Below the pieces are notes generated by a model. The model had not been told where the DNA came from. It worked only from the letters and a program-made list of their open reading frames with translations, and did no database searches. 48,472 bases of DNA from NCBI GenBank assembly GCA_015295905.1, contig DVEB01000087.1, forward strand, positions 1 to 48,472, written 5' to 3'. This stretch comes from Synechococcales cyanobacterium M55_K2018_004 (GTDB taxonomy: Bacteria > Cyanobacteriota > Cyanobacteriia > Elainellales > Elainellaceae). Positions 1-48,472 of the stretch are shown here, piece by piece. The position numbers and the translations under genes are program-made. How positions within the stretch are numbered: the stretch's first letter is position 1; each line of letters opens with the position of its first letter.

Positions 1-79
1 CCCCAAAAGCCTCAATCCTCCGTGCGCGTCGCGCACGGAAAAGCAAGGGTTTCAGCTTATCCAGAATTCACGTCACGTT
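1..79 (-). mobile_element. Element P, copy A, cut by the window edge
   Basis: On the minus strand it starts with the left terminal repeat (AACGTG...GAATTC, then GGATAAGCTGAAACCC) and runs into the first hairpin, whose core GTGCGCG-A-CGCGCAC is intact. The outer stem has decayed: the two arms no longer match beyond the core. The second hairpin lies beyond the window start. The left end carries an extra ACGTG. It lies downstream of purD. Confidence 0.8.
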
Positions 80-3829: not shown

Positions 3830-3985
3830 GCGTCAGTTCAGCTTAAGCGGGCTGTAGAGCGCTGCCTGGTACGCGGCGTCACACAATCTTTGATGTTCTC
3901 TGCACGACGCGCACAAAAAAGCAAGGGTTTTAGGGCACCGCGCTTGGCGCGGTGCCCTAAAACCCTCTTAACCAGAACTGACGTT
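3830..3985 (+). mobile_element. Element P, copy B
   Basis: The right half is well kept: the second hairpin TTTTAGGGCACC...GGTGCCCTAAAA, then the right terminal repeat ending GAACTGACGTT. The first hairpin has decayed. The left boundary (CGTCAGTTC...TTAAGCGGG) resembles an inverted right terminal repeat rather than a left one, suggesting rearrangement. The element ends 2 nt short of the stop codon of the TPR gene, in a convergent gene pair. Confidence 0.75.
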
Positions 3986-3987
3986 CA

Positions 3988-5169
3988 TTACTGTCTAAGC
4001 TCCTGCAATTGGGTGGTGAAATAGTCTGTCCTTTGGGGATAGTTTAACTGCTGAGACAGCTTGAGTGCCTGTTCAAAGGCGATCGCCGCCTCTCCCCGAT
4101 TTCCCTCAGCCCGTTGGATGCGGCCAATTTGTGCGAAGGTATTCATCACTCCCAACTGGTCGTAGGTCTGCTGATGCACGTCCAGCAACAGACGGTAGAC
4201 TACTAACGCATCCGCAGGACGGTTGAGGGACTCGTACAATGTTGCCAGACGTTGCAGGGCATCGGCAGCAAAGCCGTACTGCTGGGTCGTGCGGGCCAGG
4301 ACAAAGGCTTCCTGATACTGGAGCGCCGCTTCACGGGGGCGATTGAGGGCGCGGTGGTTATCGCCAATTGCCAGCTTCAACGGCAGAATGAGCAGGGGTT
4401 GCTGCCGCCGCTGGTACAGGTCGATGAGTTGCTGCTGGGCGACGATCGCCCGTTCGCGCTCGTTCCCTCGCTGATAGAGGTAGGCTAACTGCTGTAAAGC
4501 CTCGGCCTCAGCGATGAGATCCCGTTCATTACGGGCGATCGCCAACAGATCCCGATACACGGCTGCTGCTTCGGCGTAGTTAAACCAGGCCAGGTGAAGT
4601 TGGGCCAGCGCAAGCAGAGCCGTCTTCTCCGCAGGGCGATCGCCCGTCTGCCTAGCTCTAGTCAGGTGTTGGGTCTGGAGTGCAACCGCTGGATCATAGG
4701 CTCTCACCGCCTGATAGCCCGCTGCGATCGCCTGGAGAAGCGCTGTATCGATTGGCGACTGGCGCTGTGCCTGAGCCTCAATCTGTTGCAGGCGTTGGGT
4801 GATGGCTCGCACCAGGACGAATTGATTTTCACGCCATGCAATTGCCCCCACCCGGTTGAGCGCGGCCACCTCCTCCTGGACCCCCAGATACCGGCGCAAC
4901 CGCAATTCCCGCATCCAGATCTCGAAGGCAGCCGCAGTATCGCCCCCCTGCAAGGCCGTTTCACCCTGCTGCTGCAAGACATCCAGCGATCGCCGCAAGT
5001 CTCCAATCTCTAGGGGGCTGAGGGGACGGGCAATCGGGGGACGGGGCAGCAAGGGGTCAGGTTGGGTCGTTTCGAGCGGATTGACCAAGGGGGAGGCAAC
5101 CCCTGGTGTTGCAAGTGTTACCCCCAATCCGAACGCAATTAATCCTGCTTGAACCCGGCTCAAATTCAT
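3988..5169 (-). CDS. Exported TPR-repeat protein
   Basis: Residues 1-26 form a signal peptide (MNLSRVQAGLIAFGLGV, then TLATPGVASP). The remaining roughly 365 residues are Ala/Gln/Leu-rich helical repeats of TPR type: for example the AAAVYRDLLAIARNERD, ALQYQEAFVLARTTQQY and AAIAFEQALKLSQQLNY units. It is probably a periplasmic protein-protein interaction scaffold. No enzymatic motif is visible, and the partner is unknown. The gene is convergent with the HlyD-type gene, with a copy of element P ending 2 nt beyond its stop codon. Confidence 0.85.
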   Translation of the reverse strand: MNLSRVQAGLIAFGLGVTLATPGVASPLVNPLETTQPDPLLPRPPIARPLSPLEIGDLRRSLDVLQQQGETALQGGDTAAAFEIWMRELRLRRYLGVQEEVAALNRVGAIAWRENQFVLVRAITQRLQQIEAQAQRQSPIDTALLQAIAAGYQAVRAYDPAVALQTQHLTRARQTGDRPAEKTALLALAQLHLAWFNYAEAAAVYRDLLAIARNERDLIAEAEALQQLAYLYQRGNERERAIVAQQQLIDLYQRRQQPLLILPLKLAIGDNHRALNRPREAALQYQEAFVLARTTQQYGFAADALQRLATLYESLNRPADALVVYRLLLDVHQQTYDQLGVMNTFAQIGRIQRAEGNRGEAAIAFEQALKLSQQLNYPQRTDYFTTQLQELRQ

Positions 5170-16508: not shown

Positions 16509-17128
16509 GGGAGCTGCTGCAAGGTCGTTGCCGAGACGTAGGCAATCGACTTCAGTTAATCTTGGCCACCTGAGACGGAAGCAAATGCTTGGTGCACTCC
16601 AGTACTTCTGCCAATGGCCCAAAGGCCTTCCTAAAGGCATCGCTGACTGTTTTTGTGCAGGGCCCAAGGCGATGTTAGCTTGCTAGTGGAGCCTGCGACC
16701 GAGGGGCCAACATCCAACATATCCAGCGTTGGCAAGGGCTAGTCACCTGACTAAAGGGTTTGTATCCCTGTCCCCTTTTGCTGTATTTGTTGTTGACTGG
16801 TGTTGACTAGGACATTGACTCGAAACCAATCAGTGTGTTGTTTCGACTAGAAATCCAGAAGCAGCAGGGTGTTTTTTTGAGACGCTGGTCGTAATATGGA
16901 TAGGAAGTGCTCTAAGTGGGGCTTGCACCTCCAGCAGATCAGCCTCCCCGAATATTGCTTGTAGCTCTGCGGTGCGAACTGGAGAATGCTAAGGAGGCAT
17001 CTGGAAATTCTCTGCTGAAATAGCGACTCGACGAGAGTTCTTAGAGTTTAAGGGTTGCGTCTATCTAACCGCATCTTCGGTTGGCAGATGAATGAAGTTC
17101 AAACTTGATTTCTTGCGGTGATACGCTG
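16509..17128. other. Intergenic region with three TTGACT boxes
   Basis: 620 nt. TTGACT occurs at 16793, 16803 and 16815, at roughly helical spacing. It may be a set of -35-like elements or a binding-site array upstream of the histidine kinase gene. A T7 run lies at about 16872-16878. No convincing small gene or RNA. Confidence 0.4.
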
Positions 17129-18919
17129 ATGATCTCGCCCGGCGATCTCCCAATTTCAGTGTCTAAGTCAATTGACCTGACCATTCCTCGGCAGTTTGAC
17201 CCTTTTTTGCCAACGCCTCAGGCCGTTGATCTGATATTCACTCAGGATGCAGCGGGCTGTATTTTTTCATTTCATTGGCCTGAGGCCGACCAATTTGGGT
17301 GCAATCCTGCGCTAGTCGTTGGGCGATCGCTGGTCGATTTACCTGGTGTTTTTACCCCTGTGGCGATCGCTCCCTATCTGTTGCGGATCCAGCAGGTAAT
17401 CAACACTTTGGCTCCCCTGCAATTTCAGTATCCGTTCCGCTGTACTGACCAACTCGTCCAGTTCAATCTCATCCTTAGCCCAATCTTGCTTCCGAATGGG
17501 AGCGCGCAAATGGTAACCGTGCTAGGGCAATGTTTGGGAACTTGCACCGAAGAACAAGCCCTGCAAATGATTGACGCTCTATCTAGGCTGGATGTAACGT
17601 CCCTGGCAACGCTACCTTCCCCTGCCTCTAGTCGCTACCAAAAGTTGCTGACACAGGTTGCCTGGAACATCCGCCGCACCCTGGACCTAGAGACCATCTG
17701 GCAACAAACCGCCGATGGCTTGGGGCATGCCCTGGATGCAAGCCGCTGCCTCGTCTTTTTCTACATGCCAGGCGGAGAACAGGTCAAGGTTGTGGCCGAC
17801 TACCATCTGCCCCACCTCCCTTCGTTGCTGGGGCAAGAATATCAGCTCACTGAAGAACCTGAGATTTATCAAGTCTTGACCACGCTGAGACCGCTGCAGA
17901 TTGAACAGACGGCCCCTGGGCAAAATTTCACAACACGGCTCATTGTTGCGACAGGACATCAAGACCAGGCAAATGGCCTGATCTTACTAGAGCAGACTGA
18001 CCCCCTCAAGTGCTGGAGTGCAGAAGAAATTGATTTGATCCAGGAAATTGCGGACCAAGTCGGAACTGGTGTTGCTCATGCCACTCTGTTTGCAGCCAGT
18101 CGCGACCTCGCATCAAAGCTGCAACTAGCTAACGAGAATCTCGTGAAGCAACACCATGAACTAGAAGAAGCCCGCTGTCAGGCTGAAGCGGCCTCAAGGC
18201 TGAAGAGCGAGTTCTTGGCTAACACGTCCCATGAACTGCGGACCCCCTTGAACGGCATCATTGGCTTTCTCAAGCTGATCATGGATGGCATGGCAGACGA
18301 CCCCAAAGAGCAGGAAGAATTTATTCAGGAAGCTCACCGCTCTGCGGTACACCTACTTGACATCCTCAACGACATTCTAGACATCGCCAAAATTGAGGCA
18401 GGCAGGATGCAGCTCGACCGCAACCCGCTGAAACTAGATGACCTGCTGAACGATGTTGAGAAACTGACCCGTCCCCATGCTCAACAGAAGGGACTGAGCT
18501 TTGAAATTCGGATTCCTGCGACGCGGGATGACATCATTCTTCTAGGCAATTACCAACGATTGCTGCAGGTGATGCTGAACCTAGTCGGGAACGCAATCAA
18601 GTTCACCCACGAGGGAGGAATTACTATCTCCGCCGAGATTCTGCCAAAGACGACAGAAGATAGCGCCGGAATGGTCAAAATTAGCGTTGCGGATACAGGC
18701 ATTGGAGTATCCCTAGAAAATCAAGACCGATTGTTCCAGTCTTTCAGCCAGGTAGATAGTTCTCGCACCAGACCCTACGGTGGTACAGGGTTAGGATTGG
18801 CCATTTCTCAGAAACTTGTCGAGGCAATGGGAGGTGTTGTCAATTTCTACAGCTTGGGCGAGGGACTAGGGTCAACGGTGACATTTACAGTGCCGCTGTA
18901 CCAAGAGCCATTGATGTAG
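17129..18919 (+). CDS. PAS-GAF sensor histidine kinase
   Basis: 596 aa, no transmembrane segment, so a soluble sensor kinase. An N-terminal PAS-like region lies around 30-135 ([20 protein letters not shown]...), a GAF domain around 180-322, a short coiled coil at 325-358, and HisKA with phospho-acceptor His368 in [16 protein letters not shown]. The ATPase domain has N-box [10 protein letters not shown]1 ADTGIGV and G2 [12 protein letters not shown]. The GAF lacks an evident bilin-binding Cys-His pair, so it is probably not a cyanobacteriochrome. No receiver domain and no adjacent response regulator: an orphan kinase. ATG 17129 is used; a TTG at 17105 is possible. Confidence 0.92.
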
Positions 18920-18924
18920 TTTTT

Positions 18925-19048
18925 AATGTGAATTCGGGATAGGCTGAAACCCTCAATGTTCCGTGCGCGGCGCGCACGGAACATTGAGGGTTTTGGGGCA
19001 CCGCGCCAAGCGCGGTGCCCCAAAACCCTCTTAATCTGAACTGACGTT
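18925..19048 (+). mobile_element. Element P, copy E (complete)
   Basis: The best complete copy. Left repeat AATGTGAATTCGGGATAGG, first hairpin with 23-nt perfect arms around one G, second hairpin TTTTGGGGCACCGCGC-CAA-GCGCGGTGCCCCAAAA, right repeat ending GAACTGACGTT. Flanked by an exact 9-bp direct repeat TAGTTTTTA, a likely target duplication. It lies immediately after the histidine kinase stop codon, in a convergent arrangement with psbY. Confidence 0.9.
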
Positions 19049-31222: not shown

Positions 31223-31309
31223 CATCATTTTCATCCTGAGACTTGTTTTAGCGATGCACTCTGGTAGGGTTTGGAGTTTGGATGTGGAAAACTCTGCCGC
31301 CAGGTAACC

Positions 31310-32275
31310 ATGAATGCAATCGAGCATTTTTGCCGATCCGTCGCCCTATCGTCTAAGCTATCAGAGAAACGTTTACAACCCCTGAGATTCGTAACTGTGC
31401 TAAAGCGCTTTCCTCTCATTGTTCTACCGCTCCTGGTTGGTGTTTGGGGAATTGCCCGACCGGTAGTCGCCCAGGCGGTTATCCCTCCAGTTTTGCAACT
31501 GGACCCAAGACGGTTAGAGCAAGAAGGCTTGACTCTGGCCCAGGAAGCAGCTCAATTGGCCCAGTTTCAGCAGTACGAGATGGCACTGGCACGGGCGCAA
31601 TTGGCGTCGCAACTGATTCCCCGCAACCCTCAGATCTGGGCATTGTTAGGGAGCTTATATTTGCAAGTTGATCAGTATCGTCAGGGGGTCAATGCATTGC
31701 AGCAAGCGCGATCGCTCGATCGCAACAATCCCGCTCTCCTGTTTGCGTTGGGGACGGCTTACTTTCGGTTAGAGGACTATAACCAAGCCATCTCCTACCT
31801 TCAGCAGGGCATTCGTCTGAAAAGTGATGAACCTGGTGCCTTTTTTGATCTGGGCAACGCTTACTACATGCTGAAGCGCTACGAAGAAGCAATTCGTAGC
31901 TATGAGCGAGCAGTGCGTCTGGATGCTAAGTTCTGGCCCGCAGTGAACAATATTGGCCTGGTGCTGTACGAGCAGGGCAATGTGGATGGTGCTCTAGAGC
32001 GCTGGCGAACCGCTGCCCAGATCGACGCGCAGCAGGCCGAACCGCAACTGGCGATCGCCGTTGCCCTCTATACCCGTGGACAGCAGGAGGAGGCCCTGCG
32101 CCTCGGGGAAGCTGCTCTGCGGCTGGATGACCGCTACGCCGACCCAGAGTTTTTGAAGGAAAATTTGTGGGGCGATCGCCTCCTTGCTGAAGCGCGGACG
32201 TTTTTGCAATTACCGAAGATCCGGGAGGTTCTGGCAAGAATTGGGCAGAACCAAGTGGGTGCACCCCAACGATGA
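31310..32275 (+). CDS. TPR-repeat protein, probably exported or membrane-anchored
   Basis: 321 aa from ATG 31310. A Lys/Arg-rich start and a hydrophobic stretch at about 33-48 (PLIVLPLLVGVWGIA), then a Pro/Val-rich site ARPVVAQAV that looks like a signal peptidase site. Residues 70-270 are classic TPRs: MALARAQLASQLIPRNPQIW, PALLFALGTAYFRLEDYNQA, PGAFFDLGNAYYMLKRYEEA, and WPAVNNIGLVLYEQGNVDGA. No enzymatic motif; probably an adaptor. It is convergent with the GHL10 gene, with element P in between. Confidence 0.88.
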   Translation: MNAIEHFCRSVALSSKLSEKRLQPLRFVTVLKRFPLIVLPLLVGVWGIARPVVAQAVIPPVLQLDPRRLEQEGLTLAQEAAQLAQFQQYEMALARAQLASQLIPRNPQIWALLGSLYLQVDQYRQGVNALQQARSLDRNNPALLFALGTAYFRLEDYNQAISYLQQGIRLKSDEPGAFFDLGNAYYMLKRYEEAIRSYERAVRLDAKFWPAVNNIGLVLYEQGNVDGALERWRTAAQIDAQQAEPQLAIAVALYTRGQQEEALRLGEAALRLDDRYADPEFLKENLWGDRLLAEARTFLQLPKIREVLARIGQNQVGAPQR

Positions 32276-32300
32276 GGCCAACCGCGATCGGTCTTGTCTG

Positions 32301-32417
32301 AGCATTAAGTAAGCTGAAGGCCTTGATTTTCTCGGTGCGACGCACCCAGAAAATCAAAGGGTTTGGGGCGCTGCCCACCGCGCGGTGCCCAAAATTCGCT
32401 TAGCCCGAACTGACGTT
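32301..32417 (+). mobile_element. Element P, copy H
   Basis: Left end worn (TAAGTAAGCTGAAGG remains). Hairpin 1 pairs CCTTGATTTTCTCGGTGCG with CGCACCCAGAAAATCAAAGG: the stem differs from other copies at several positions, but in matched pairs. Hairpin 2 is weakened. The right end GCTTAGCCCGAACTGACGTT lies inside the GHL10 reading frame and supplies its stop codon. Confidence 0.85.
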
Positions 32418-33605
32418 ATGGGTAACTGTGGGGCGTTGGGCAGGGTGAGGAAACATGGCGTGGAGGGCGGCATCTCGTCCATTCAGAGTTTCGTAAAAGA
32501 AGAAAGACACCCCAGCAAACCGGCGATCGCGCACCGCGTTTAGTTTTGCGGCAATCAAGCGGGTATCGATCGGAGGTTCCTCAATCAGTCCAGTCAGAAT
32601 ACCAACTCCGACAGGAATGTGAGTGCGGGCCTGTTGCACCTCTGGGCGATCGAGTTCCTGAGTGAACGCATCGAGATGGCGACGATAGACCTGCAGGATC
32701 AGTTCTTCCACATAGCCCCGGCGTTCCCAATTGCCCCAGTCCTGCAAAAAGTTTTGATAGGCAAACTCGCGGCTGTTGGGGGAGAGAGCAATAATGCAGT
32801 CACTTTTCCTGGCTTTAACTGTCTCAAACACTTGGGCCATCATTCGAGTCATCTGGTCGGCCCGCCAGCGCATCCACTCCGGGTCTTTGGGATTGCGTGG
32901 GGGTGAGCTGCCGTTGTGGGATCTGCGATAAAGTTGCACAGTCAGCGGGTCGTAGCCCATCTCAATCGGCAAGCCAAAGTGGTCATCGAGTTGGATGCCA
33001 TCAATCTCGTACTCACTCACAATTTCCCCGATCAACCCAACGATGAGCTGCTGCACCTGCGGGTGGAAGGGGTTGAGCCAGACGCGGGGATATTTGCCCT
33101 GCATCCATACGGTGGTGCCATCCTGACGGCGACTGAGCCAGTCTGGGTGACGCAGCGCCAACTCTGAGTCTACCGGGGCCATCAGGCCAAACTCAAACCA
33201 AGGCACGACCGCTAATCCCCGCTGGTGCCCCAGTTGCACCACTTCTTGCAACATATCTCGCTGCTGAAAGCCAGGGTGTGGATCGACGGGATACCCAGTG
33301 ACCTCGGCAGCAATGTTGCTGGGGTAGAGCGTATAGCCCCAGTTCCAAACCGTAGGATAGACGGTGTTGAAGTTCAGTCGGGCTAGGCGGTGCAGGGCGC
33401 GATCGAGGTGGCGACGGGAGAATAGAACATCGCTGTCGATGTTGGTCAGCCAAACTCCCCGGAGTTCGGGAGATGAGGTCTGAGCGGTGGCAAGCAAGGG
33501 AGAGCGGAGGGACAAGGCGATCGCCACTCCCAGAAAAAGGCCCAGCAGCATGGAGAGACATCGTCTGGGTGATTTACAAATGCTTTGCAGGCGTTTAGGG
33601 TTCAC
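32400..33605 (-). CDS. Glycoside hydrolase-like protein (GHL10/YngK-type)
   Basis: 401 aa with a signal peptide or anchor (LSMLLGLFLGVAIALSL, mature part after ATAQ). A TIM-barrel domain of the GHL10 family (PF02638 type): ELRGVWLTNIDSDVLFSRR, LNFNTVYPTVWNWGYTLYPS, LAVVPWFEFGLMAP, VWLNPFHPQVQQLIVGLIGE, EIDGIQLDDHFGLP, IALSPNSREFAYQNF. The Asp pair in IQLDDHFG is the likely active-site region. Such enzymes act on cell-wall or extracellular glycans; substrate uncertain. The last five codons and TAA (AAC GTC AGT TCG GGC TAA) are the terminal repeat of element P, so the natural C-terminus was replaced by an insertion. Confidence 0.88.
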   Translation of the reverse strand: MNPKRLQSICKSPRRCLSMLLGLFLGVAIALSLRSPLLATAQTSSPELRGVWLTNIDSDVLFSRRHLDRALHRLARLNFNTVYPTVWNWGYTLYPSNIAAEVTGYPVDPHPGFQQRDMLQEVVQLGHQRGLAVVPWFEFGLMAPVDSELALRHPDWLSRRQDGTTVWMQGKYPRVWLNPFHPQVQQLIVGLIGEIVSEYEIDGIQLDDHFGLPIEMGYDPLTVQLYRRSHNGSSPPRNPKDPEWMRWRADQMTRMMAQVFETVKARKSDCIIALSPNSREFAYQNFLQDWGNWERRGYVEELILQVYRRHLDAFTQELDRPEVQQARTHIPVGVGILTGLIEEPPIDTRLIAAKLNAVRDRRFAGVSFFFYETLNGRDAALHAMFPHPAQRPTVTHNVSSG

Positions 33606-45410: not shown

Positions 45411-45534
45411 AACGAGAATTCGGGATAAGCTGAAATCCTTGCTGTTCCGTGCGCGACGCGCACGGAACAGCAAGGATTTTGGGTCACCGCGCCCGGCGCG
45501 GTGACCCAAAACCCACTTAACCAGAACTGACGTT
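45411..45534 (+). mobile_element. Element P, copy L (complete)
   Basis: AACGAGAATTCGGGATAAGC, hairpin 1 with perfect 23-nt arms around one A (stem AAATCC/GGATTT), hairpin 2 TTTTGGGTCACCGCGC...GCGCGGTGACCCAAAA and right end CTTAACCAGAACTGACGTT. Flanked by TTAATTTAA on both sides, a likely 9-bp target duplication. The match extends to 13 nt because the left flank also carries GACG. Confidence 0.9.
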
Positions 45535-48419: not shown

Positions 48420-48472
48420 AACGTGAATTCGGGATAAGCTGAAACCCTTGCTGTTCCGTGCGCGACGCGCAC
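48420..48472 (+). mobile_element. Element P, copy M, cut by the window edge
   Basis: Left end AACGTGAATTCGGGATAAGC, then GAAACCCTTGCTG and the first arm of hairpin 1 through CGACGCGCAC. It matches copies C and L. The rest lies outside the window. Confidence 0.85.

Follow-up and report, generated by a model that had tools for sequence, protein, structure and literature searches.

The last five codons and the TAA stop of a GHL10 glycoside-hydrolase-like gene in the window (the whole 48,472 nt stretch of DNA analysed here) coincide with the right end of a ∼124 nt palindromic repeat. We consider it highly probable that this repeat is a non-autonomous IS982-type MITE which inserts at TA targets and for which stop codons are harmless TA sites. 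This account is based on the sequence itself, on target duplications, on the statistics of copy positions, on the tails of homologous proteins and on termini shared with IS982 elements.

Sample and searches

The sample of the study genome (G000) comprised 85 contigs with a total length of 1,329,734 nt, 263 copies of the repeat and 855 genes called using our own dicodon script, not a standard gene finder. The first 40 stretches were taken from contigs chosen for holding copies; 60 more contigs were picked by number, with some already-seen ones left out. Copies were located using a profile of 124 positions derived from 48 complete copies. The right-end pattern occurs 576 times genome-wide, compared with a single occurrence of the reversed control pattern.

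The GHL10 gene and copy H

The open reading frame at positions 32400–33605 of the minus strand encodes a protein of 401 residues which was assigned to GHL10 in a family profile scan (PF02638, 309 bits). Its C-terminus (...FPHPAQRPTVTHNVSSG) runs from RPTV through T to HNVSSG. The terminal 18 nt of the gene (32400–32417, minus strand), read as AAC GTC AGT TCG GGC TAA (N V S S G stop), are the right terminal repeat of a copy termed copy H, as an earlier note had proposed from the sequence. Strictly, 17 of these 18 nt are element-derived, since the initial A (32417) still belongs to the target site as its final base. Copy H (32310–32417, plus strand; profile search, E = 1.6e-22) covers profile positions 16–124 of 124. 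The left terminus (32296–32312) has decayed, and the hairpins and the right end are retained; the copy folds well (z = −2.7). A putative target, TATGGGTA (TACCCATA on the gene strand), is placed at 32417–32424 (plus strand) by the TANN(N)TA rule described below, with no second target copy recognizable at the decayed left end. The copy occupies the gap between two convergent stops, one at 32275 belonging to a gene for a TPR protein (31271–32275, plus strand; open reading frame and profile scan) and the other at 32400 belonging to GHL10. With a decayed left end and a nearest homologue of 64% identity, neither the empty site of copy H nor any lost codons could be reconstructed.

The search for GHL10 homologues covered 60 related genomes, of which 59 gave a match, together with 80 loci from named genomes. 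Among the 97 distinct sequences (109 rows; row L064 was unreadable) none ends in NVSSG, in agreement with the expectation of the earlier note that homologue tails would differ. The two nearest homologues (64% identity) terminate RPTVS* and further ones at ∼62% identity terminate RPRV* or RPRVG*, and the element thus starts where the conserved protein stops. No residues conserved among near relatives are missing from GHL10. Beyond the RPTV point, 96 aligned homologues carry tails of 0 to 14 residues, and in 56 of them a W within a semi-conserved tail falls at the place of the junction. A tail of this kind could have been lost from GHL10; the nearest homologues are without it. The altered protein is presumably both expressed and tolerated. 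That NVSSG might be a native tail which resembles the repeat by chance, or that the GHL10 reading frame has been misread, is favoured by no finding and has a negligible probability given its absence from all of the homologues, a match of the DNA to the repeat along ∼108 nt and the occurrence of NVSSG at the same repeat end in two unrelated proteins.

The second copy named in the earlier note (3885–3985, plus strand; profile search) ends, exactly as described there, 2 nt from the TAA of an open reading frame at 3988–5169 (minus strand, 393 residues), which the note labelled as a TPR gene; TAATGA would be a 6 nt target. Two complete copies are located at 18925–19048 and 45411–45534 (both plus strand), with target duplications TAGTTTTTA and TAATTTA, respectively; the first TAG of TAGTTTTTA is the stop of the open reading frame at 17105–18919. 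The edges of the window (2–73 and 48420–48472) fall inside copies of the repeat, as do the ends of many other contigs of the study genome (C59, C73, C92, C120, C146, C166 and C176 among them). Since contigs start or end within its copies, the repeat breaks the assembly. An Rfam search gave no match at the repeat, and a single tRNA was the sole match in the window.

Other genes that end within the repeat

In-frame reading into a copy up to the stop at positions 16–18 (frame 1) was found in five cases among the 263 copies and is a minority form. Three of these enter through the right end and all end in NVSSG*: GHL10, a protein on contig C8 that we take to be HemW-like and one on C164 that we take to be O-antigen-ligase-like, both named from the look of their sequences. 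The other two enter through the left end, on C37 and, in a decayed copy, on C216. Additionally, two left ends (C19 and C179) end the gene at a TGA in another frame, and a decayed left end on C204 does so at an early TAA. The HemW-like protein ends LF-NVSSG*. The LF is shared by 15 of 19 homologue rows and is followed in these by ∼3 to 10 variable residues; in the remaining four rows, the core ends in IF, LL or MF in three and one is a partial paralogue. The ligase-like protein likewise joins the element at the end of its conserved part, with homologue tails that are more variable. Within 22 nt, the left end of the repeat offers stops in each of the three frames, compared with a single frame that has an early stop at the right end; genes that enter the right end in either of the remaining frames would gain long tails.

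Identity of the repeat

The repeat shows the traits of a MITE, a non-autonomous DDE element, with a length of ∼124 nt, no gene of its own, terminal inverted repeats (AACGTGAATTCGGGATAAG/AACGTCAGTTCTGGTTAAG) and 263 copies in 1.33 Mb. With the duplication set aside, its ends are ACGTG and ACGTC, with the AC start of the IS982 family. According to PMC7335449, this family is characterized by AC ends and by direct repeats that vary in length. A scan for elements with the same ends and a different interior retrieved 979 nt elements in the relative G015 (ends ACGTGAGTTCGGGATAAG and ACGTCAGTTCGGGTTAAG), in which a broken gene matches the IS982 transposase NF033520 with 149 bits (cut-off 130). In a second relative, G021, an open IS982 gene of 303 residues lies between such ends in a 967 nt element flanked by the 6 nt duplication TAGCTA. 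G015 is probably Kaiparowitsia implicata, as its GHL10 C-terminus and identity match the named record (L020 and L045), and G021 is probably strain LEGE 07170, for which L017 and L043 share the GHL10 C-terminus. The ends held in common with elements that carry an IS982 transposase, together with the AC start and duplications of variable length, identify the repeat as an IS982-type MITE, which would have been mobilized by an IS982 transposase acting in trans.

In the 362-contig assembly of the study genome, a family search with controls detected no IS982 gene above the cut-off (best score 26.5 bits, cut-off 130). Pairs of repeat ends lying 600–4000 nt apart in its first 758 kb were inspected for a parent element and rejected, as they enclose ordinary genes only, plus one open reading frame that is presumably the helix-turn-helix part of another IS. 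A RAYT/REP origin was also discarded, since Y1_Tnp (PF01797) has no matches in the study genome and gave control matches in five of 14 genomes. At E = 0.001, the repeat is matched in four of 60 relatives, with the study genome counted. Two others, G043 and G009, yielded 372 and 175 first-look candidates and no match at this threshold; these candidates perhaps represent other palindromic repeat families.

Target duplications and empty sites

In the study genome, 16 of 73 complete copies are flanked by an exact duplication of at least 4 nt, and the duplicated targets begin with T and finish with A. G015 contains 40 exact right ends, for 37 of which (loci among L171–L210) the left end was located by pattern. 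Its copies are near-identical, and perfect duplications flank 29 of the 37; these are 6 nt (20 copies), 7 nt (eight) or 8 nt (one) in length and mostly of the form TANN(N)TA. The remaining eight copies show no duplication or one of 2 nt only. The near-identical copies with perfect duplications suggest a recent burst of the MITE in G015, where IS982 elements persist, although mostly in broken form. When the flanks were joined to restore the empty site, the last TA of the target turned out to have carried the stop of a gene at three of the 37 loci (L177, L179 and L192). After insertion, the stop stands at the same codon, now as T|AA, and the length of the protein is unchanged. In the study genome, some copies are positioned at the end of another copy or directly against it (G000:C86:22048-22299 and G000:C34:220-343); the terminal repeats of these other copies also contain TAAC.

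Position of the copies relative to stop codons

Ends with no more than two terminal positions missing were counted as intact (203 of 276 ends facing the 3' end of a gene and 140 of 177 facing a 5' end). In the sample, stop codons are clustered at the ends of copies, and the precise abutment pointed out in the earlier note does recur, beyond what chance would give. Among the 203 intact 3'-facing ends, 25 have a stop across the junction (−2/−1; T|AA and in a few cases T|AG or T|GA), in 26 the stop opens the target duplication (2–5 nt) and one lies 0–1 nt from a stop; none of the 140 intact 5'-facing ends falls into the same bins (Fisher test, 8e-14). Spaces between convergent genes account for 68 of 191 spaces with a copy and 68 of 607 without (p = 2e-13). 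At ends far from stops, TA|A is found in a fraction of 0.56 of 263 cases, compared with 0.040 for TA in intergenic DNA.

A pattern of this kind might be left behind by random insertion if only harmless positions survived, the peak at stops then being a residue of purifying selection. Such an origin would fit the finding that called genes contain just one of the 263 copies and that 5'-facing ends are far from genes (median distance 244 nt, compared with 56 nt for 3'-facing ends). It is nevertheless very improbable, as uniform insertion beyond stops predicts 3.7 junction stops and 7.8 target-start stops against the 25 and 26 seen, and as the preference for TA|A persists far from stops.

We constructed a TA-weighted model with a variable target length of 6–9 nt, TA at both ends and insertion restricted to 3'-end space. 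For 104 ends located between −2 and 60 nt, it predicts 13.7 junction stops and 16.0 target-start stops; these figures omit the preference for A at the third target position, and more TAA stops would be expected if it were included. As TA weighting brings the expectation to this level, target choice explains most of the abutment. In total, 51 stops abut a copy against 29.7 expected (Poisson p = 0.004 for junction stops and 0.013 for target-start stops), leaving a ∼1.7-fold excess unexplained. An earlier position-weight expectation with a fixed 7 nt target (3.5 stop insertions for 147 copies) would inflate the excess and was replaced by the variable-length model, which we judged to be fairer. 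Furthermore, TGA is used by five of the 51 abutting genes compared with 243 of 855 genes overall (p = 0.003), as follows from a TA target.

The excess is one of several observations that could be taken to mean that stop supply is itself selected, with repeat ends that evolved an in-frame TAA and hosts that keep copies as tight stops or terminators. The presence of TAA at positions 16–18 of both terminal repeats, the stops in all three frames at the left end and the enrichment of copies between convergent genes point the same way. We regard this explanation as improbable, if less so than random insertion, since TA preference covers more than half of the abutment and the stop pre-existed in all three junction stops with a readable empty site. 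In addition, the right end provides an early stop in a single frame, and copy H showed no site resembling a terminator. The earlier note had left it undecided whether gene ends are a tolerated or a selected niche for the element. Tolerance is upheld and selection is not needed, as a TA-rich target and an element end that starts with A explain most of the abutment and the stop was kept in the three exact empty-site comparisons.

Proposed mechanism

In the account that we favour, insertion of an IS982-type MITE at TA targets, an IS982-family transposase would act in trans, now or formerly, cutting at TANN(N)TA and duplicating 6–9 nt around an element that itself begins and finishes with ACGT. 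TAA and TAG stops would be TA sites at which a hit is harmless, so that insertions at gene ends survive, and frame alone would decide among three outcomes. A stop that forms the first TA of the target would remain upstream of the element. One that forms the last TA would be rebuilt as T|AA by the A of the element. If the target is out of frame and situated within the final, dispensable codons, the ribosome would read five codons into the element and add N-V-S-S-G at a right end or N-V-N-S-G at a left end before the TAA that is present in both terminal repeats. GHL10 is a case of the third outcome.

A bolder proposal, which we consider speculative and rather unlikely, is that the IS982-type machinery of these cyanobacteria prefers the 3' ends of genes beyond its requirement for TA. 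The TA target, the A-first ends and the TAA at position 16 of both repeats would then make insertion at stops nearly cost-free and amount to a built-in safe-site strategy, by which the repeat might have reached an extrapolated ∼1,000 copies and placed the same pentapeptide tail on unrelated proteins.

Significance and comparison with known systems

A target that resembles stop codons, combined with an end that rebuilds them, would offer a mobile element a simple route to harmless sites. Wherever a genome contains such repeats, 'safe-site' insertion can be tested from the sequence by itself, and most of the placement of the repeat at gene ends can be explained without invoking selection. Gene catalogues of these genomes call for caution, as a short C-terminal tail can stem from an element. 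No paper combining the IS982 family, MITEs and cyanobacteria was found in open-licence PMC, and no description of stop-codon-abutting IS982 MITEs was found there among the matches listed. As far as these searches go, what is new is the quantified connection of the stop codon with the target sequence and the end of the element; overlap of MITEs with gene ends was already known.

REP/BIME elements are palindromic, present in many copies and located near the 3' ends of genes. Unlike REP/BIME systems with RAYT, the study genome is without a Y1 transposase and the repeat has target duplications and terminal inverted repeats. The repeat resembles the IS982 family, as set out in part of PMC7335449, in its AC ends, in inverted repeats of ∼15–35 bp and in direct repeats of variable length, and IS982 relatives with these very ends carry the transposase NF033520. 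It differs from the 979 nt IS in its length of ∼124 nt, its two hairpins and its lack of a gene, with only ∼18 nt common to both at each end. RUP, Correia/NEMIS, ERIC, RPE and YPAL are small inverted-repeat elements, most of which have TA ends and a target duplication and some of which give fused reading frames (PMC2229807, in part); they have other sequences and mobilizers, and the fusions covered in that part involve contiguous MITE reading frames rather than a tail of five codons. A parallel in gene structure is provided by Coxiella, in which copies of QMITE1 and QMITE2 extend 1–50 bp into the C-terminal end of functional genes and, in one strain, a MITE supplies the C-terminal residues of enhC (PMC5896051, in part). 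In the portion of that source available, the stop is placed immediately beyond the element and a link between TA targets and stops is not described; the overlap of a MITE with the end of a gene is the same as in GHL10.
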